The notes under the pieces were generated by a model that was not told the origin of the DNA, did not search any database, and saw nothing but the letters and a program-made list of their open reading frames with translations. The translations under genes and the position numbers were made by a program. 64,000 bases of DNA from an uncultured Bryobacteraceae bacterium (GTDB lineage Bacteria > Acidobacteriota > Terriglobia > Bryobacterales > Bryobacteraceae): the NCBI GenBank assembly GCA_938027685.1, contig CALJAM010000029.1, positions 1-64,000 of the forward strand. The letters run 5' to 3'. Below, piece by piece: positions 24,465 to 33,684 of the stretch. Numbering within the stretch: position 1 is the stretch's first letter; every line of letters begins with the position of its first letter.

Positions 24465-27173
24465 TTAGGGTTGGGAGGGATTGGGATTGACCACAGGAAT
24501 CGTTACGATGTTACTGACGTAAACGTCCTGGGCAATCGTAAGTTGAGTAAATGGATTGGTGGGAAGATCGGAATTCAATTCCAGATCCACGCGGTAGACA
24601 CCTACCTGCCCCGGCACCATGGCCGCCAGCAGCACGTTGGCCGTCTTGCCGCCGGCGAGCGACGAAACGAATTCCAGAGGTTCGTTCAACTCCGGCCCGC
24701 GGTAGCGAAAACCGGTATGAAGCGCCTCGCGCGCTTCGTCGGGCTTGATCAGACCCAGCCCGGTGGCATACACGTAAATCGTCTCGCCGGGCAAGGCCGG
24801 ATTGTCCGGCGTGACCAGCGCACCCTCCACGTTGGCGCAACACAACGCCGGCGTCGTCGGCGTCATGATCACCTGCGCCCCCTCGGACGCCTTGGCCGAG
24901 TAAACAATCCCGTTGCCCTCCGGACCAGGAATGCGGGCGCGCAACCGGATGCGCGTCCACTGTCCCGCCGGGAATGCAAACACCTTCGGGTCCTGGTTGA
25001 TCAGCTCGATCAGCGCATCGCGAATCGTCGCCAACGTGTCGCCTTCCTGGACGGTGTAACTGTACTCCCGGTCCTCGATGATGACCGTCGCCACGTCCCC
25101 CGCCTTCACGCTGCCGTCCACCGACACCGTCCCCGAAGCGTGACTGCTGGCATGGAAAGCCACGGCCGGCCGCGGGTCCGGACCGTCGAATGCGAAAATC
25201 CCCGGATTCGATTTAATGATGGGCACCGCGATGGGGGTGGTGATGGTCACCCGCCCGTCCTTGTGGCGTGTCCTCACATACGCGTTTACGCTGGTGGTAT
25301 CCAGCACCTCGTACGGAATCTGCGCGTTGATCTGCGTGGGCGAAACGTACAAAAGCGGCGCCTTGATCCCGTCGAAGTAAACCTGGACACCGCCCAGCTC
25401 CGTGGGCAGGGGATCGGCGTCCGGCGGCGCGGCTTCCGTGAAGTCCGCCAGATCGTCACCCACGATGCTCACCAGCGTGCCCGGCGCGATCTTGGCCGCG
25501 TCCATGCCTCCGCTCAGCTTCGCCCCGCTTGTGCTGACCGCGATCTGCGCATTCTCGGAAGTCTTCACCGAAATGTCAATCTCGTTGCCCGCCTCGCCCG
25601 GCATGCGCGCGGTCAGGATGATCGCGTTCAGCTCATAGTTGGGCGTGGCCAGCACGTTAGGATCTCCGTCGCCCTCGTTGATCAGCTCGACGATCTTGCG
25701 GATGACGCTCTGAAATGTGTCGTCCTTGACGATCTTGTATTTGTACTCCTTTTCCTCGATGGTGATCGTGATCTCGTCGTCTTCCTTGACGGAACCGTCG
25801 AAGGTCAAGTAACCGACGGCGTACACTTCGCGGCTGGCGGAATTCCTCACGCCGGTCACAGGCAGATGCCGCTCGGCCACGGTGAAGACCATGATCCTGC
25901 GATTGAACGGATCGCTGACGTACAGATTCTCCCCGTCCCAGGCCAGCGACAGAGGCGTACGCAACGAGTCCGCACTCGAGCGCCGTAGCTGGTATGCGGA
26001 ATCCGAGGCCTGGTTGACCGTGCCCGCGATCTGGCCCAGCACCACGTCCGCCTTCGCCCCGTTCTCGGTGGGGATGCGGTTGAAGACCAGCACCCGGTCG
26101 TTGCCCCCGTCGGCAATGAAGAGACGCTGCCCGTCGGAGAGGGCGAAGCGCGGAAAATCCAGCGTGGCCAGGCACATCTTCGGATAAATGTTCTTGCCCT
26201 CCTCGTCCTGGCCCGTGGGCTCGCAAAGCTTCTCGACGTTGTTCGCCACGCCGCTTGTCATGTCGGGCTGGCCGATCACCACGTCGGCGGGCTGTCCATT
26301 GCGCGTGGGAATCGAGTTCCAGATCAGCACGCGACTGTAGCCCAGGTCGGCCACGTACAGACGCTGGCCGTCCGAGGTCACCGAAACCGGTGATAGCAGC
26401 GTATCCGGCTGCGGGTTGAAAGGCGCCTTGAAGAGGTCCACCTGCGCGCCGGTGCCGAAGTCTTTCTGACCCAGTACGATGTCGGCCGGCGCAAAGTTCT
26501 CGCGCGGGATGCGGTTCCAGATCAAAACACGGTCGTTGCCGGTGTCCGCCACGAACAGCCTCCCGCCCTGAATCCAAACGCCCTCCGGGCCGCGCAGCGT
26601 CTTTTGCCCTGGGACGCGCGGGTCGCCCGTACCCGTGTTGGGCGTCACGGTCTTGAAATCGGGCTGCCCGACCACCACGTCGGCGGGCTGCCGGTTGGAG
26701 GCGGGGATGGAAAACCAGATCAGCACGCGGTTGTTGTCCGTGTCGGCGACCGCCAGGATCGTGCCGTCGGTGGCCACGGCGGTGGGCGAGCGCAGTCCGT
26801 CAGGCCCCACACCCCAGTCGGTGCTCGTGAAATCCGGCTGCCCCAACACCAGCGTGGCGCGCCCCCCGCATACCGGACAGCGACGATCGTACGCCAGCTC
26901 GTCGGTCGGCGCAGGCAACATTCGGGACAGGTTCTTGTAAATTAGAACCCGATTGTTGATAGGGCTCGCGCCGATCCGATTGGAATCACACACAAAAAGC
27001 GTGTCGTTGGCGTACGCCAACCCGCTGACCCCGCCCAGGATCTCGGCCGAGGGATTGGGATCCTGCTTGGTGAAGGTAGGCTGCCCGATCACCAACCGGG
27101 CGGCCTGTCCCGTCGCGAAATCCGCGCCCTGCGCAGCAACCGTCACCCACAGCAGAACCGCCCACGATTTCAT
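24465..27173 (-). CDS. Secreted NHL-repeat protein with TIGR03437-type C-terminal domain
   Basis: A 902-residue secreted protein (signal MKSWAVLLWVTVAAQGA). Residues about 20-435 are NHL-like propeller blades with recurring phrases LVLGQPDF, VADTDNNRVLIW, VADTGNDRVLIW and IADGGNDRVLVF. Residues about 560-670 and 780-895 form the Solibacter-type C-terminal domain (IAPGTLVSIVGDDLADF, LLYVSPTQINAQIPYEV, LPGETIYVYATGLG). Two related modules of about 100 residues interrupt this plan at 456-556 and 682-778; the second splits the TIGR03437 domain. CxxC at about 99-102 is notable. The start is ATG at 27173. Function is unknown; the propeller suggests binding at the cell surface. Confidence 0.88.
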   Translation of the reverse strand: MKSWAVLLWVTVAAQGADFATGQAARLVIGQPTFTKQDPNPSAEILGGVSGLAYANDTLFVCDSNRIGASPINNRVLIYKNLSRMLPAPTDELAYDRRCPVCGGRATLVLGQPDFTSTDWGVGPDGLRSPTAVATDGTILAVADTDNNRVLIWFSIPASNRQPADVVVGQPDFKTVTPNTGTGDPRVPGQKTLRGPEGVWIQGGRLFVADTGNDRVLIWNRIPRENFAPADIVLGQKDFGTGAQVDLFKAPFNPQPDTLLSPVSVTSDGQRLYVADLGYSRVLIWNSIPTRNGQPADVVIGQPDMTSGVANNVEKLCEPTGQDEEGKNIYPKMCLATLDFPRFALSDGQRLFIADGGNDRVLVFNRIPTENGAKADVVLGQIAGTVNQASDSAYQLRRSSADSLRTPLSLAWDGENLYVSDPFNRRIMVFTVAERHLPVTGVRNSASREVYAVGYLTFDGSVKEDDEITITIEEKEYKYKIVKDDTFQSVIRKIVELINEGDGDPNVLATPNYELNAIILTARMPGEAGNEIDISVKTSENAQIAVSTSGAKLSGGMDAAKIAPGTLVSIVGDDLADFTEAAPPDADPLPTELGGVQVYFDGIKAPLLYVSPTQINAQIPYEVLDTTSVNAYVRTRHKDGRVTITTPIAVPIIKSNPGIFAFDGPDPRPAVAFHASSHASGTVSVDGSVKAGDVATVIIEDREYSYTVQEGDTLATIRDALIELINQDPKVFAFPAGQWTRIRLRARIPGPEGNGIVYSAKASEGAQVIMTPTTPALCCANVEGALVTPDNPALPGETIYVYATGLGLIKPDEAREALHTGFRYRGPELNEPLEFVSSLAGGKTANVLLAAMVPGQVGVYRVDLELNSDLPTNPFTQLTIAQDVYVSNIVTIPVVNPNPSQP
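24840..25130 (-). repeat. Copy 2 of the ~100-residue module, inserted in the TIGR03437 domain
   Basis: This encodes residues 682-778 with the matching pattern VDGSVKAGDVATVIIEDREY, then YTVQEGDTLATIRDALIELI, then LRARIPGPEGNGIVYSAKAS. It lies inside the C-terminal domain, between the strand ending in RPAVAFHASS and the strand ending in VTPDNPALPGETIYVYATG. Confidence 0.7.
25506..25808 (-). repeat. Copy 1 of an intragenic ~100-residue module
   Basis: This encodes residues 456-556 of the NHL/TIGR03437 protein. It has the pattern FDGSVKEDDEITITIEEKEY, then YKIVKDDTFQSVIRKIVELI, then ILTARMPGEAGNEIDISVKT, ending in SGAKLSGG. It is similar residue by residue to the segment at 24840-25130, which implies an internal duplication or repeated insertion. 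Confidence 0.7.
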
Positions 27174-27250
27174 ATCGGAGGAAGCTTCACCAACTGCCTG
27201 AAACCGTTAGTATAGCAGCCGCCCCCACACCGGCTGCCGATGCGGCGCGC

Positions 27251-28255
27251 TCACCGCGGCTTGCCAGGCCCGGGTATCTTCACAACGCCCATGTCGCTCG
27301 GCGAGGAATAAATCGTCACGCCGGTCTCGGCCGACTCCGCAGGTTTGGTTCCGCGCACAGGCCCGCCGCGCCCTAGCAACGCCATCATGCGGGCCAGCTC
27401 GCCGGCCGGGATCGTCATTGCGAGCCTCATCCTCTTACCTTCCACACTAAGATCGCGCAGGTAAGAGGCAGCCGCCGGCTCGCGCGCCTGCCACAATCCT
27501 GCGAAGAAGCGCAACGCGTTGGCCAGGTTCACCGCGTCCTGCTCCGTCCGGCTCACCGTCGTCAGCTCCAACTCGATCGCATCGTTCAGGCGCACGCCGC
27601 CTTCCGCCCGTTCGATCGCCTTCATGACCTCACCCGCCAGGATCCCCGCCGTCGGCTCCTTGGGTGCGCGCGCCGCCAACTCCTCCACCGGCACGACGGA
27701 CACGCCCCAAGCGTCGAAACGCGCCATCAGCTGCTCGGCAGCCCGCCGCAACTCACCGCCGGGAAGGCCGCCTCGGCTGTGCCGCGCGATCGCCCCACGC
27801 ACGCTGGCCGGATCGCCCGCCAGCAGGAGCGTGGCGTCGAGGAAGGCCAATGCCATCGGCTCGCCCTGCTTCTCCTCCGTCAGCAGGATTTCCACTCCCA
27901 GGTAAGTCTCCCGTCCCGCAATCTTGCCCCGCGCCACCGCGGCCAGATCCGTCCGCCCGAAAGCTCCCCGCGCAGCGAACAGGACATTGGGCTTGCTTCC
28001 GCCCGCGCTGGCGATGAGCACCTCGTCCAGATCGCGCAGCGGGTCGAAGCCCGTCAAGCGCGTCAGCTCCGCCAACTCACGTTCGCTGGACTGAGCCTGA
28101 GACCACAACGCCTGGGCGGGTTGAAACGCACGCACCCGTTCGACGTTGATCCCCATGAGCAGCCGGGCGTCCGGCATCGCCAGATCGAGCAGGTTCGTCT
28201 GCGCACCGGCCGCAATCGCCCACGCACACCCCCACACCGCCAGACGCTGCTTCAT
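27251..28255 (-). CDS. Exported protein of unknown function (334 aa)
   Basis: A predicted secreted protein with signal peptide MKQRLAVWGCAWAIAAGAQ and no membrane segment after it. The mature part has ordinary globular composition, with phrases such as LMGINVERVRAFQPAQALWS, LRDLDEVLIASAGG, LAFLDATLLLAGDPASVRGA and LSVEGKRMRLAMTIPAGELA. Proteins of this plan recur in acidobacterial genomes, but I cannot assign a family or function. Start 28255 is preferred to an upstream in-frame start because it puts the signal peptide at the N-terminus. It lies upstream of the NHL gene (78 bp between the two), possibly in one transcript. Confidence 0.75.
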   Translation of the reverse strand: MKQRLAVWGCAWAIAAGAQTNLLDLAMPDARLLMGINVERVRAFQPAQALWSQAQSSERELAELTRLTGFDPLRDLDEVLIASAGGSKPNVLFAARGAFGRTDLAAVARGKIAGRETYLGVEILLTEEKQGEPMALAFLDATLLLAGDPASVRGAIARHSRGGLPGGELRRAAEQLMARFDAWGVSVVPVEELAARAPKEPTAGILAGEVMKAIERAEGGVRLNDAIELELTTVSRTEQDAVNLANALRFFAGLWQAREPAAASYLRDLSVEGKRMRLAMTIPAGELARMMALLGRGGPVRGTKPAESAETGVTIYSSPSDMGVVKIPGPGKPR

Positions 28256-28882
28256 ACCGCGATTATACCAGCCGAGCGCACGGGGGCTCGCCAATGAGAA
28301 ATTTCGACGTGTCGGTGCAGCACCGATCTCGAAACCTCGGGCGGGGCGTAGTGACACCGGATCAACGCGCATGCAGAGGCTCGAGGCCGCTCATCGATCG
28401 TCATGGCTAGCCCAGTCCAGCGCCTGAAACTCCCGTACCTCGAGGGCGGCTTGAGGGTTAAATCCGCAGTGGCCTCTCCAATTAGTAGTAAGGCAGCGCG
28501 CGTTCCCCCAGTCCCTGCGCGGTGCCAAGGCCGGCGCACTGCGATGCCCGCTTCCGCACCCACTCCCCCTTCTCCATCCCCGTCTCCGGAGCGTGGAACG
28601 CGAACCCTCATGGCCGGCCTAGTGCGGGCCATGGGTTTTGCAGTCATTGACCGCATCTTTGTTCGCGACAGCAACGTTTCGAACCCGGATCCCACCGTAA
28701 AGAGAGCCAAACCCTCGAGCAGGGCGAGCGCCGGTTCACCTTGCGGCCGCGCCACTGGGTCACGACTCTTACCCGCGCAAGCAAATTCGAGGACGTCATG
28801 GTTGGGTCTGACGGAACGGTGACCGCCGGCCACGATTTTCCCATCCGATCTCATTCGGGTACAATCTCCGAAGGAAGTCACC
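28256..28882. other. Gene-free stretch between the exported protein and the nuclease-EVE gene
   Basis: The left end must hold the promoter of the leftward exported-protein gene and the right end that of the rightward nuclease-EVE gene; GAAGGAAG at 28870-28877 is the latter's ribosome-binding site. A 212-codon minus-strand frame spans the region, but its translation is low complexity with no start signal. No repeat ends or integrase remnants are visible. Confidence 0.45.
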
Positions 28883-30073
28883 GTGACCATTACGCTCGAT
28901 CAAGTCCTCGGACTCGTCGGCACGCTCGATGATACCCCTGGGGACGACACCCCCCGAGAACGGTTCCGGAGGTTTCTACGGGAAAACCTCTCGGAGGTCG
29001 GGCATCTCCGAGATTACATCGAAGCCTGTCTGCGTGCGTCCGGTCCTCAATACAGCCGAGCGCTCCAAGACCTGGTCAATCATCTCGGGCGTTTCCTGGG
29101 CTTCGAGGTGACCTATGGTCGTTACCAAGGAGTGCGCGGCGAGGTCGGTTTTGACGGGCTGTGGAAGTCGCCCACGGGATTTCATGTGGTCGTCGAGCTC
29201 AAGACCACAGAGGTTTACGCCGTCAAAACCGCCGCTTTGTTGAACTACATCAACGAATTGGTCTCGAGCAAGGCGATAACCGATCCCGGCACGGCCTTGG
29301 GCCTCTATGTGGTCGGCCGGCCTGATCCCGAACTCCGCTCACTCGAGAACGCAATCATCGCCGAACGGAAGACCGGCCGGCTTCGGGTCATCTCCGTCGA
29401 TTACCTCCTCTCCCTGGCCGAATTAGCCAAAGAGTACGGCCTTGCTCACGAAGACGTACTGGCGATCATTCGGCCTTCGGGGCCCAACCTGGACCCGGTC
29501 GTGGACCTCATGATCAGGCTGGTGGCCCAGTCGAGGGGTTCCGTCGAAGTTACGCCGGAAGCTTCCCCTCGTCGTGTGGTGGCCCCTGGCCTGGCGCAAC
29601 TCCAGGACCTCGAGACGCAGACCGCAGCGGCACACCAGTCTGAAGGCGCCTATTGGATCGCACCGGTGAGGTCCACCGAGGACGAGACGGCAGAAGCGTG
29701 CATCGCCAGGTTGGTCGGTAAAGAACATATTTTCGCCATTCGCGAAACCTCCCCCGCCAAAAAGCGCATCAAACCCGGCGATTGGATCGCCTTTTATGCC
29801 GCGAACGTCGGGGTCGTGGCGCACGCCAAGGCGACCTCGGCTCCCGAGCGGAGACCCGGTGAAGTCGTGCCTGAGCCCGGACTCTATCCCTGGGTGTTCC
29901 GGCTGAGCGATGCGGTGCTCTATCTGGACCGACCCGTGGTGATCGACCGCACACTGAGAAGCCGCCTCGACGCATTCCAAGGAAAAGATCCGGATGGGAA
30001 CTGGGCCTGGTTCGTTCAGGTTATGCGTCCGGTGTCGGAACACGATTTCAAAGTGCTCACCGGCCAGCTGTAG
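28883..30073 (+). CDS. PD-(D/E)XK nuclease-like plus EVE-like domain protein; candidate modification-dependent nuclease
   Basis: A 396-residue soluble protein starting at GTG 28883 behind GAAGGAAG. Residues about 25-175 look like a restriction-endonuclease-type fold: a helical lead (ALQDLVNHLGRFLGFEVTYG), then FDGLW with Asp91 and VVVELKTTE with Glu105 and Lys107, matching D-x(n)-ExK. Residues about 250-395 resemble an EVE/PUA-type domain: YWIAPV at 257, RIKPGDWIAFYAANVGVVAH at 295-314, and aromatic-rich WAWFVQV near 374. EVE domains read modified bases in DNA or RNA, and in modification-dependent restriction enzymes they are fused to nucleases. Base composition is visibly less GC-rich than its neighbours, suggesting transfer. 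It stands alone, without a McrB/McrC or methylase partner. Both domain assignments rest on motifs, not searches. Confidence 0.65.
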   Translation: MTITLDQVLGLVGTLDDTPGDDTPRERFRRFLRENLSEVGHLRDYIEACLRASGPQYSRALQDLVNHLGRFLGFEVTYGRYQGVRGEVGFDGLWKSPTGFHVVVELKTTEVYAVKTAALLNYINELVSSKAITDPGTALGLYVVGRPDPELRSLENAIIAERKTGRLRVISVDYLLSLAELAKEYGLAHEDVLAIIRPSGPNLDPVVDLMIRLVAQSRGSVEVTPEASPRRVVAPGLAQLQDLETQTAAAHQSEGAYWIAPVRSTEDETAEACIARLVGKEHIFAIRETSPAKKRIKPGDWIAFYAANVGVVAHAKATSAPERRPGEVVPEPGLYPWVFRLSDAVLYLDRPVVIDRTLRSRLDAFQGKDPDGNWAWFVQVMRPVSEHDFKVLTGQL

Positions 30074-31086
30074 ACCTGAATGCGCAGCATTGTCAGGCGG
30101 CGAAGATCAGGCGTTGAATTTCGAAATAGACTGGCAAATTATTACGTGGGATCCGATGCGATCTTGTGTTTCGCTTTTGCCCCTCTCCGGAACAGCCATG
30201 ATCGCTAAGTAAGTTTCGACCGCAATACTTCAACGGCTATTTTCTCCAAATTTTTCAAGGCTTCAAGAAAAAGTATTTCGGCCGTCGTGACAGCGCGGTG
30301 CTCGGAGCCTGCTCGTGGTCGTGAAAAGCACCTTCGGCGTCCCGTATAAAGTCGCCGCGTAGCCGGCCGGAGTGCTTTTTAAAAAATCGTAAATCGGCCC
30401 GTTAATCACTGGCTCACGGAGCGTGGCAGGCGCCTTATGCCGTCCCGCGGCCAAAAGGAGCCGGAACAGGTGTCCGGGTAGGCTGGGCTCTCCGAGCTGA
30501 AAGGCCCAGCACGCGCACCCGGCCCGGCAGCAGGCCGTCGGTGTCCGGGTAGGCTGCGCTCTCCGAGCTGAAAGGCTGCTCGCAGTACCGGCCGCCGGCG
30601 AGCACGACCTGGCCGCGGCTCGCACCGGGGACGCACGGCCCCGCCGGTCCACGGTCAACCACGAGGCAGCCTTCGGGAGTTTATCGGCGAACATTGCGAT
30701 GCCTACTGCGCCGCCTGCCTCGTTCCCCCCGCAATTCGCGAAAGCGTCAAACCCGGGATCGGAGCACGTTCCAGCGTCGATCCGCCGAGCGCTTTTGCCG
30801 GCTCTGACCGGCTCCTTCTGCCATTCATTCGCGAGCCGCCCGCCGAACCGAGGCTGCTGCTTTCCCGCCTTCGGAGACACGTGCCAAGGCCTTGCGGCTT
30901 CCGCCGGAGCTTTTTAGGAGGCAGAGCGCCACGGTCAACGCGGGCCTCCGCCGGAGAGCAGCCGGCTACGGCACACGGGTCGAGCAGCGCATGGGCACGG
31001 AGTCGGCCCGCCGCGGCGCGCGACGGGGCCGGCGGGCGATCAGGCCTTCAGCCGCGGAGGTCCGGCGGTAGGCCGCGTGGCGGCGC
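30074..31086. other. Gene-free stretch containing direct repeats and hairpins
   Basis: No frame here has start signals and protein-like composition together. A 205-codon minus-strand frame (30263-30880) has a plausible-looking last 45 residues but a low-complexity body, and I reject it. The region holds a complementary pair AAAAGCAC (30324-30331) and GTGCTTTT (30372-30379) followed by A/T runs, two 37-bp direct repeats at 30469-30576, and then very GC-rich sequence up to the FAS1 terminator. Confidence 0.45.
30469..30576. repeat. Two 37-bp direct repeats
   Basis: Positions 30469-30505 and 30540-30576 are identical except for one base (G/C in GGCTGGGCTC versus GGCTGCGCTC). They start GGTGTCCGGGTAGGCTG and end CTCTCCGAGCTGAAAGGC, with a 71-bp period. 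Each contains a short hairpin GCTC-TCC-GAGC. No gene spans them. They could be a REP-like family or the remnant of a repeat array. Confidence 0.75.
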
Positions 31087-31116
31087 AAAAAAGGCCGGCC
31101 TCTTGCGAGGCCGGCC
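31087..31116 (-). terminator. Rho-independent terminator of the FAS1 gene
   Basis: A perfect 10-bp inverted repeat GGCCGGCCTC (31093-31102) and GAGGCCGGCC (31107-31116) with a 4-base loop is flanked at 31087-31092 by six A on the plus strand. On the minus strand this is a strong hairpin followed by a T run, 20 bp after the stop of the leftward FAS1 gene. Confidence 0.9.
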
Positions 31117-31135
31117 CGTAAGCCCAAGGCGAGAT

Positions 31136-31615
31136 TCACTGCTTGGGAAGGATAACTTTGTCGATGACGTGGATGATCCCGTTGTCGGCCTCGATGTCGG
31201 CCTTGATCACGTTGGCGTCATCCACCTGGACCTTGCCGCCGCGGGCGCGAATGCGAACGCTCTGACCATTCAAGGTCTTGGCCGAGCGCAGCTTGACGAC
31301 GTCGCTGGAGGGCACGCGGCCGGAAACCACGTGATAGGTCAGGATGCCGCGCAGCTTCTCGCGGTTCTCGGGCTTGAGCAGGTCGTCCAGAGTGCCGGGA
31401 GGCAGCTTGGCGAAAGCCTCGTCGGTGGGCGCAAAGACCGTAAAGGGTCCGGGCGCCTTCAAAGCGTCCACCAGACCTGCCGCCTGGAGCGCGGCGGCCA
31501 GGGTTTTGAACTGGCCGGCAGCCACGGCGGTGTCGACGATGTCGGCGGCGCGCGCCGCCGGGGTCATCAGAAGGCAGGCGGCCGCTAGAGCGCCTGCCAT
31601 GAGTCGGAACTTCAT
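31136..31615 (-). CDS. Secreted fasciclin (FAS1) domain protein
   Basis: A 159-residue secreted protein (signal [23 protein letters not shown]) with a single FAS1 domain filling the mature part. Both family motifs are clear: H1 as [15 protein letters not shown] and H2 as [13 protein letters not shown] at the C-terminus, with YHVVSG between them. FAS1 proteins mediate adhesion, and some bind lipophilic ligands including carotenoids. GGAGG precedes the ATG at 31615. The gene has its own promoter, terminator and a divergent CarH-type regulator whose predicted operator covers the promoter, so light- and B12-responsive expression is inferred. Confidence 0.92.
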
Positions 31616-31666
31616 GGTTCTCGAGTCCTCCTTGGGAATTGCGCTGCGTTTGGGGCGCACGATTCC

Positions 31667-31696
31667 ACTGTACACCTATTGTCTAGCTTTTGTCAA
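31667..31696 (-). promoter_or_regulatory. Promoter of the FAS1 gene
   Basis: On the minus strand a perfect -35 TTGACA (31691-31696) is followed after 18 bp by TACAGT (31667-31672, 4 of 6). Transcription would start near 31660 with a leader of about 45 nt. Both elements lie inside the 11-bp operator repeats. Confidence 0.7.
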
Positions 31697-31701
31697 GGTC
31701 T
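31669..31701. promoter_or_regulatory. Three tandem 11-bp direct repeats, predicted CarH operator
   Basis: On the plus strand three consecutive 11-mers, TGTACACCTAT (31669-31679), TGTCTAGCTTT (31680-31690) and TGTCAAGGTCT (31691-31701), share TGTnnAnnTnT without gaps. A degenerate fourth copy may follow to 31712. The reverse complement AnAnnTnnACA agrees with the 11-bp direct-repeat operator I recall for Thermus CarH (AnnTnnACA core). The array covers the -35 and most of the -10 of the FAS1 promoter and so suits repression. Confidence 0.75.
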
Positions 31702-31714
31702 AGATCAAAAAAAC

Positions 31715-31743
31715 TGGACAAAATCAGGACGCCGCGGTATCCT
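31715..31743 (+). promoter_or_regulatory. Possible promoter of the carH-like gene
   Basis: TGGACA (31715-31720, 5 of 6) and TATCCT (31738-31743, 4 of 6) with 17-bp spacing lie just before the ATG at 31755. The leader would be only a few nucleotides, so translation would be nearly leaderless, in keeping with the absence of a good ribosome-binding site. Confidence 0.4.
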
Positions 31744-31754
31744 AGGGATAGGCG

Positions 31755-32654
31755 ATGGCGGAAGTCTACAAACTCTCGACGATCGTTAGGCTTACTGGCT
31801 TCTCGCCCGCGGTGTTGCGGGCCTGGGAGCGACGCTACGGCTTCTTGCGTCCCGCCCGCGGCCATGGTGGACAAAGGCTATACAGCGAGGAGGACCTCCG
31901 CGTCCTGCTGGCCGTCCGCCGCATGCTGGCCGACGGCCGCTCGGTGGGCGAGGCGGCGGCCTTGGGCCGGCGCGAGTTGCTGCGGCTGGGAACGCAGGCG
32001 GCCGGGGGCCAGCACCAGGCGACCCCCGTGGCCGAACTCGAGCGGATGCGCCAGGCCATGATCGAGGCCGCGCTTGCCGTCGACGCCGAGAGTTTGCGAC
32101 GGCGGCTCGATGAAGTCTTCGCACGACTCTCCGCGGAGCGCGCGGTGCTTGACGTTCTGGCGCCGGTGGCCTGGCGGATCGGCCAGTTGTGGGCGGAAGG
32201 CCGATGCAGCGTGGCGAGCGAACATTTGGTAACCGAAATGTTTTCTCTGCGGCTGCGCGGACTCGCCGAGGCCCTGCAGCCCACCGGCTCGCCGGCTTTG
32301 GCCGCCTGCTTCCCGGAGGAGCGCCACGAGCTGGGGTTGCTGGTGGCCGCCTGGTGGGCGGCGCGGCGAGGTCGGCGGGTGGTGTACCTGGGGCCTGCCC
32401 TGCCCTTGGAGGATCTGGAGAAGGCCTGCCAACGTGTGCAGCCGGAGACCGTGCTCCTGTCCGTCACCATTCCGGAACTCTACTTCAAACATCGCAGCGC
32501 CTTGGCCGCCTTGGTCAGCCGGCAGCGCGCCGCGCGTCACTGGATCGTCGGGGGCCAGGCGGTGCCCGAGCAGGACCCCGAGCTCTCGGCGGCCGGCGTC
32601 ATCCTGTGGCCTCCCAACCGCCCCTTGGAACAGGCGCTAGACTGGGCGCTTTGA
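31755..32654 (+). CDS. carH: CarH/LitR-type B12-dependent photoreceptor repressor (MerR family)
   Basis: A 299-residue transcriptional regulator. Residues 1-75 form a MerR helix-turn-helix (VYKLSTIVRLTGFSPAVLRA, WERRYGFLRP, RLYSEEDLRVL). Residues about 93-175 are the four-helix bundle that caps cobalamin and contain the light-sensing motif W-x9-EH: Trp146, Glu156, His157. Residues about 178-299 are the B12-binding Rossmann domain with ExHxxG at 189-194, where His191 is the expected lower axial ligand. All residues known to be required for adenosylcobalamin photosensing are present. In the dark such proteins bind DNA as tetramers, and light breaks the Co-C bond and releases them. The divergent FAS1 promoter with tandem 11-bp repeats is the likely target. 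Usual targets are carotenoid or photolyase genes, none of which is in the window. Confidence 0.9.
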   Translation: MAEVYKLSTIVRLTGFSPAVLRAWERRYGFLRPARGHGGQRLYSEEDLRVLLAVRRMLADGRSVGEAAALGRRELLRLGTQAAGGQHQATPVAELERMRQAMIEAALAVDAESLRRRLDEVFARLSAERAVLDVLAPVAWRIGQLWAEGRCSVASEHLVTEMFSLRLRGLAEALQPTGSPALAACFPEERHELGLLVAAWWAARRGRRVVYLGPALPLEDLEKACQRVQPETVLLSVTIPELYFKHRSALAALVSRQRAARHWIVGGQAVPEQDPELSAAGVILWPPNRPLEQALDWAL

Positions 32655-32796
32655 GCGGACCGCTCAAGCCCCCGATCACACCCGCTCTGTCCAGGCAACC
32701 GACGGTCAGCCTCGGCACGGCCCGCCAAGAGCCGCATCGCCGCTGCGCGCTGCAGCTCGGTGACGGCCGCAGCCGGAGAAGTCCGGTCGGCCGTCC

Positions 32797-33684
32797 TCAT
32801 CGCACCTCGTAGTTGTCGCGCAGGAACTGCTCGACCTCGCCGCGTGTGGCGCGCAAGGGGCCTTCGGCTTCCAGCTTCAGACTGGTGACGGCCGCGGCCC
32901 ACAGCGTCGCCTGCCAGGGGGAGGCGCCCTCCAGACGGCGGCACAGGTAGGCAGCGATGCATGTATCGCCCCGCCCGGAACGGCCGCGCAGTTCGCGGCA
33001 GCGGAAGGGAGCGGCGTGAAGCGTGTCGCCGGCGAGCGCCAGCACGCCTTCCCGATGCGTGATGACGACCTCGCGCGGTCCCCAGGCAGTAATGCGGCGC
33101 GCGGCTGCAACGGGATCCTCCTCACCGGTCAGGGCTGCGGCCTCGACCGCGTCTGCCTTGAGCAGGTCCAGCGCGCCCAAGACGGCATCGCGCTCCGCCC
33201 AGGGCGTGAAGCGCAGCGTTCGGTCGGGACCGACCTCGCGCAGGAAGCCTTGCGCGTCGGCCGCCAGCCATTCGGCTTTCGGGCGCAGCTCCCGCACGAC
33301 CTCGAGCGGGATCTCGCCGCGGAACGAGCCGTTCAGTAGCCAAGCGCGCCCAGCCAGCAGGCGAACCTGCTCGGGGCTGAACGGGCCGGCGTCGGAGGAG
33401 ACGGCAATGACGCGCTCGTCGGGATCCGAACTCGGGTAGCGCAGCTCGAGACCGGTGGACTCCGGGCTCCAGGCGGGGAAGACGGCTACGCCGAGGCTTC
33501 TCAGCCGTTCGACGACGCGGCGGTCTTCCCAGGCCAGGCGCGTGACGGCCGCGGCGCGCAGTCCCATCATGGCGGCCACGTGCGCGCCGTAGTTGAAACC
33601 GCCGCCGTCGACCCTGCGCACGCCGGCTGGGGAAACGATGGTGTCCTTGGTGTAACTTCCGATGAACACAATGTCGTATGTCAT
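32797..33684 (-). CDS. PfkB-family carbohydrate kinase of the inositol operon
   Basis: A 295-residue ribokinase-like sugar kinase. The N-terminal GGGFNYGAHVAAMM (27-40) and C-terminal GRSGRGDTCIAAYL, with catalytic Asp240 in the anion-hole loop GRGD, are the two PfkB signatures. It is the last gene of the minus-strand inositol operon, 24 bp after the OPA transporter. A PfkB kinase occupies a comparable place in the Thermotoga maritima TM0412-TM0416 inositol cluster (TM0415). The phosphorylated intermediate is not known to me; a keto-aldonate or inositol derivative is likely. Confidence 0.88.
   Translation of the reverse strand: MTYDIVFIGSYTKDTIVSPAGVRRVDGGGFNYGAHVAAMMGLRAAAVTRLAWEDRRVVERLRSLGVAVFPAWSPESTGLELRYPSSDPDERVIAVSSDAGPFSPEQVRLLAGRAWLLNGSFRGEIPLEVVRELRPKAEWLAADAQGFLREVGPDRTLRFTPWAERDAVLGALDLLKADAVEAAALTGEEDPVAAARRITAWGPREVVITHREGVLALAGDTLHAAPFRCRELRGRSGRGDTCIAAYLCRRLEGASPWQATLWAAAVTSLKLEAEGPLRATRGEVEQFLRDNYEVR

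Follow-up and report, generated by a model that had tools for sequence, protein, structure and literature searches.

A putative one-gene type IV restriction enzyme combining a PD-(D/E)XK nuclease and an EVE domain in an uncultured Bryobacteraceae bacterium

The DNA analysed here (a 64,000-nucleotide stretch of contig CALJAM010000029.1, hereafter the window) encodes a 396-residue fusion of an N-terminal PD-(D/E)XK nuclease domain and a C-terminal EVE domain that is probably a one-gene type IV (modification-dependent) restriction enzyme. This kind of protein is already known, as a survey has assigned EVE-PD(D/E)XK proteins a putative role as type IV restriction enzymes (Bell et al. 2020; PMC7641849). 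The family of the window protein is without a name: no Pfam, NCBIfam, PHROG or PADLOC model spans the whole protein, and PADLOC, NCBIfam and PHROG scans returned nothing usable. Feature coordinates are listed in Table 1.

Table 1. Features of the nuclease-EVE gene and its surroundings (window positions)
Feature	Position	Strand	Basis
Gene for 396-aa PD-(D/E)XK nuclease-EVE fusion protein	28883..30073	+	open frame, full-length relatives, AF2 model
Ribosome-binding site AAGGAAG	28871..28877	+	read from sequence, 5 nt upstream of GTG
N-terminal PD-(D/E)XK nuclease domain with leading helices, residues 1-218	28883..29536	+	PDB structure matches, Z 13.0-14.4
Asp91 codon, start of second core strand	29153..29155	+	conserved in homologs except L054, L024; strand 92-95
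Glu105-x-Lys107 codons, end of third core strand	29195..29203	+	conserved except L020, L054, L024; strand 101-107
Flexible linker, residues 221-253	29543..29641	+	pLDDT <50
C-terminal EVE domain, residues 252-396	29636..30070	+	structure matches; weak PF01878
Segment absent from same-genus G001, with this gene as the only one picked inside it	28269..31086	.	blastn

The initial annotation placed an open reading frame on the forward strand at 28883-30073, isolated between gene-free stretches and lower in GC than its flanks. The frame exists as described, with a GTG start and 396 open codons, and is considered a real gene because of its AAGGAAG site, a full-length relative with 58% identity and approximately 20 further homologous loci. 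It is the sole gene picked in 28373-31135, with nothing in 28373-28882 or 30074-31135. The lower GC is also correct (60.9%, against approximately 65% for the window) but weak: several other window stretches are equally low, so this character was dismissed as evidence by itself. Codon usage is the stronger foreign sign, the gene being the most deviant of the 31 in the window (z=-5.4). Families assigned among ten scanned neighbouring proteins include NHL/TIG repeat and fasciclin-domain proteins, a MerR/B12-binding regulator, a PfkB kinase, an MFS transporter and a Gfo/Idh oxidoreductase; none of the ten is a methyltransferase or a recognisable defence protein. A single sigma-70-like site upstream of the gene (28838-28865) is not above chance expectation, and an Rfam scan gave one chance-level match only, on a terminator hairpin near 31.1 kb.

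The protein was modelled with AF2 from a 22-row homolog alignment (mean pLDDT 79.7; residues 221-253 and 367-377 under 50), a single-sequence model (pLDDT 34) being unusable. Residues ~10-218 of the model match N.BspD6I (Z 14.4), HindIII (Z 13.7), R.BspD6I2 (Z 13.6; 156 of 186 aligned, rmsd 2.7) and FokI (Z 13.0; 18% identity) in the PDB. The modelled core consists, in order, of a helix (55-71), three strands (75-78, 92-95, 101-107), a helix (116-128) and a further strand (138-144). D91 opens the second core strand and E105 and K107 close the third, and an aspartate followed by ExK at these two places is the usual PD-(D/E)XK layout. The D-x(8,25)-[DE]xK pattern was dismissed as evidence by itself, as 15 of the 31 window genes contain it and shuffling the protein's N-terminus produces it in 43% of cases. 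The nuclease-like pattern proposed earlier (Asp91, Glu105, Lys107) does lie at those residues, and its support comes from the structure and from homolog conservation, not from the pattern. Among the homolog rows that cover these positions, all three residues are identical except in L020 (ExR), L054 (D91 to E, and ExR) and L024, where the active site is lost. D63 is likewise retained wherever a row covers it, the one exception being the broken end of a fragment from genome G030. The window protein thus has a predicted nuclease fold with intact catalytic residues, in a domain covered by no curated model in Pfam, NCBIfam, PADLOC and PHROG scans.

In the same model, residues 252-396 match the PDB structures MJECL36 (Z 12.1) and PH1033 (Z 12.0), as well as the EVE domain of the modification-dependent enzyme VcaM4I (Z 10.4). 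The top three Foldseek matches are PH1033 (E-value: 8.9e-5), Rpa0253 and Atu2648, all EVE-fold proteins. By sequence, the EVE model PF01878 scores 14 bits on the window protein (E-value: 0.052), below the Pfam curated cut-off of 23 bits, and 18.2 bits on its relative L033 (E-value: 0.0026). A PDB search with the EVE profile had the EVE-fold protein MJECL36 as its best match (E-value: 0.17), and PDB sequence searches found nothing significant. No sequence alignment of the EVE domain with VcaM4I was obtained, and the VcaM4I pocket residues P24, W82 and Y130 could not be placed on the window domain. The EVE/PUA-like C-terminal half of the initial annotation is clear as a fold, with a sequence score under the Pfam cut-off. 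The structural check suggested with it, for a PD-(D/E)XK core and an EVE fold, was run and recovered both, so that by predicted structure the nuclease is fused to a PUA-superfamily reader domain (EVE).

Full-length relatives have 49-58% identity to the window protein. They are encoded by a Planctomycetota assembly (G454, locus L005; 49%), genome G066 (56%) and an IMG/VR contig (L033; 57-58%). In G030, a genome of the same family, the homolog is present in pieces, broken into separate frames. The L005 copy shifts frame near its end, possibly through a sequencing error, since the adjacent methyltransferase gene is broken in the same assembly. Phage records gave no match, and a plasmid search gave one partial archaeal match only, which was left out of the analysis. 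More distant homologs have mainly the N-terminal domain in common. The EVE-type members form one clade (99/98), apart from members with another C-terminal domain. The sister clade (L022:8335-9546 with L018, L021, L023, L026, L034 and L050-L053) has the same nuclease domain and a different C-terminal domain with the motif ...YWYA/YWFA..., its family unassigned, with no Pfam match where scanned. One member has a short different tail. Tentatively, the N-terminal domain may represent an unnamed BspD6I/FokI-like nuclease family that swaps C-terminal sensors, moves as single genes among chromosomes, phages and defence islands, and recognises modifications not yet known as restricted.

Most homologs, the window copy included, stand alone outside recognisable defence islands. 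The candidate defence role put forward in the initial annotation gains support from the defence neighbourhoods of some relatives. L033 lies among MTase_II methyltransferase, mad8-like, HTH, GIY-YIG and PAPS-reductase-like genes. The L034 homolog directly follows a KwaB-like gene, with an integrase close by; the KwaB-like gene (L034:5032-5940; PF16162, E-value: 1.2e-6) and this sister-clade homolog possibly form a new two-gene arrangement. In L018 and L036 the homolog is flanked by phage terminase and capsid genes (in the IMG/VR contigs, L036:5764-6942 sits between a terminase large subunit and a capsid gene), so this nuclease family also travels in phages or prophages. L005 has HmaB (DUF1156), an AAA ATPase and a DUF4276 protein upstream and HmaC/DUF499 downstream, and in this Hma-type locus another nuclease-like protein with a weak HSDR_N match (L005:4783-5943; E-value: 0.013) directly precedes the homolog. 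In L026 (genome G319) the homolog sits between HEPN-DUF499 (HmaC, E-value: 1.7e-302) and a serine resolvase.

The direct adjacency to HmaC/DUF499 in L005 and L026 raises an alternative, that the window protein is an accessory nuclease of multi-gene methyltransferase/ATPase systems (Hma, DUF499-centred and BREX-related), now orphaned and dependent on its partners. Such systems frequently include PD-(D/E)XK nucleases as auxiliary components (PMC12839542). This is unlikely here: only these two of approximately 20 homologous loci have such a neighbour, and the window genome (97% complete) has no DUF499 (PF04465) match, whereas G319 and G454 have DUF499 beside their homologs. Furthermore, in two genomes of one genus (L050 and L051) the homolog is solitary, adjoining the same threonine-dehydrogenase-like gene near a ketobutyrate-ligase-like gene (names assigned by eye).

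YTH domains, which are related to EVE, bind m6A in RNA. Because they match residues 252-396 nearly as well as EVE proteins do (Z ~10-11), the C-terminal domain might instead read modified RNA, with the nuclease cutting RNA or acting as a suicide effector. This alternative is quite improbable, as the nuclease half matches DNA restriction enzymes and EVE proteins score slightly above YTH. For a DNA-directed enzyme, the target is probably modified cytosine, and the ligand of the EVE domain would most likely be 5mC or 5hmC, with 6mA second; the phage hydroxymethylcytosine named initially is thus one candidate among several. The EVE domain of the EVE-HNH enzyme VcaM4I binds 5mC/5hmC DNA (PMC7897488). 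No C5-methyltransferase match exists in the three genomes that carry EVE-type genes with all catalytic residues kept (G000, G066 and G454), and one is present in G030, where the copy is broken. A 5mC-cutting enzyme would predict such an absence, so the three carriers give a weak hint of 5mC. As 27 of 61 relatives also have no C5-methyltransferase, three absences would arise by chance approximately 1 time in 11 (a rough figure treating them as independent), and the absence was rejected as proof of 5mC specificity.

Within the EVE clade, L020, L054 and L024 form a long-branched subgroup. The side branch with active-site loss comprises L020:9295-10431, L054:200-1450, L024:8088-9251 and L055:7314-7916, the last keeping the N-terminal domain only; its members are possibly reader-only proteins. 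L020 and L054 come from one genus, and L024 and L055 appear to have a neighbouring gene in common. That these copies persist after losing active-site residues, with neighbours apparently in common in L020/L054 and in L024/L055, could point to a host gene that serves regulation or repair rather than defence. Such a role is very improbable for the window copy, which retains all catalytic residues. Matches occur in only 2 of the 61 closest genomes, counting the window genome, which argues against a long-kept host gene there; in the phylum as a whole, 10 of 396 sampled genomes have one, on the same count.

The gene appears to be acquired, as proposed initially. When window positions 26501-33500 were compared by blastn with the same-genus genome G001 (L073), the matches ended at 28268 and restarted at 31087, with 82 bp between them in place of a segment of approximately 2.8 kb; the G001 flanks are contiguous and 77% identical. 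This empty site and the codon usage make acquisition likely. Insertion in the window lineage fits best, because the gene is absent from nearly all relatives, with loss in the relatives as the less likely alternative. At the same place, G002, of the same genus, has an unrelated 520-aa ORF (L074:2546-4108), so this spot between genes may receive a different insert from one genome to the next. The segment ends are marked by no repeats or integrase, and the 2.95-kb region is single-copy in the genome and free of inverted repeats of at least 14 nt, which leaves a transposition mechanism without support. The gene-free part of the segment contains a 37-nt direct repeat (30469-30505 and 30540-30576; 97% identical, 71-nt spacing). 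The lowest point of the cumulative GC skew falls within 28000-32000, around 30-31 kb, where the inserted segment lies, and could be a replication landmark or merely a gene-orientation change. A selfish homing-type nuclease spreading as a single gene would fit the solitary gene, scattered distribution, empty site and phage copy between terminase and capsid genes, but this is the least probable reading, as the gene is intergenic rather than inside an intron or intein, carries a reader domain and comes with no target site or co-conversion evidence.

The model proposed for the window protein as a type IV enzyme is as follows; its DNA substrate, its dependence on modification, the flipping of the base, the pairing of domains before cleavage and the role against phages are all predictions. 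The C-terminal EVE domain would bind DNA with a modified base, probably with that base flipped into the domain's pocket. Cutting close by would then fall to the N-terminal PD-(D/E)XK domain, which resembles those of BspD6I, HindIII and FokI, probably after two such domains pair on the DNA. Because the modification itself is the target, no protecting methyltransferase would be needed, and none is encoded among the ten neighbouring proteins scanned. The type IV reading is favoured by the predicted structure of both halves, conservation of D91, E105 and K107 outside one side branch, the single clade of EVE-type members, the lack of a methyltransferase or defence gene among the neighbours, and the segment's absence from a same-genus genome together with deviant codon usage. 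It is favoured too by relatives that adjoin Hma genes, phage genes, an MTase_II island or a KwaB-like gene, by putative type IV enzymes of the same architecture (PMC7641849) and by the VcaM4I EVE precedent (PMC7897488). Counting against it are the sub-cut-off Pfam EVE score, the VcaM4I pocket residues that could not be placed and the position of most homologs outside defence islands.

Several known systems resemble the window protein in part. The EVE-PD(D/E)XK proteins of Bell et al. 2020 (PMC7641849) have the same two-domain architecture and the same predicted role; that survey groups many PD(D/E)XK types, whereas the window protein has specifically a BspD6I/FokI-like nuclease and an EVE domain below the Pfam cut-off. 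VcaM4I (PMC7897488) likewise fuses an EVE reader to a nuclease, but its nuclease is HNH and its EVE domain N-terminal. BspD6I (Nt.BspD6I with its small subunit), FokI and HindIII share the nuclease fold; unlike the predicted enzyme, they recognise sequences in unmodified DNA and are accompanied by methyltransferases, and they have no significant sequence match to it. CMoRE (PMC12923530) is also a single gene with an N-terminal nuclease and a C-terminal modification sensor, a likeness of overall architecture, but its nuclease is GIY-YIG. The Hma/DUF499-centred BREX-related systems (PMC12839542), whose core genes adjoin two homologs, are built around a DUF499 ATPase, whereas the window gene is solitary.

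As the domain pair has been described before, the conclusion is unsurprising. Should it prove active, the window protein would add to the one-gene systems that counter phages whose DNA is concealed by base modifications, and it could serve as a reagent for detecting such bases. One nuclease domain joined to two different C-terminal domains also provides ready material for studying sensor swapping in such enzymes.
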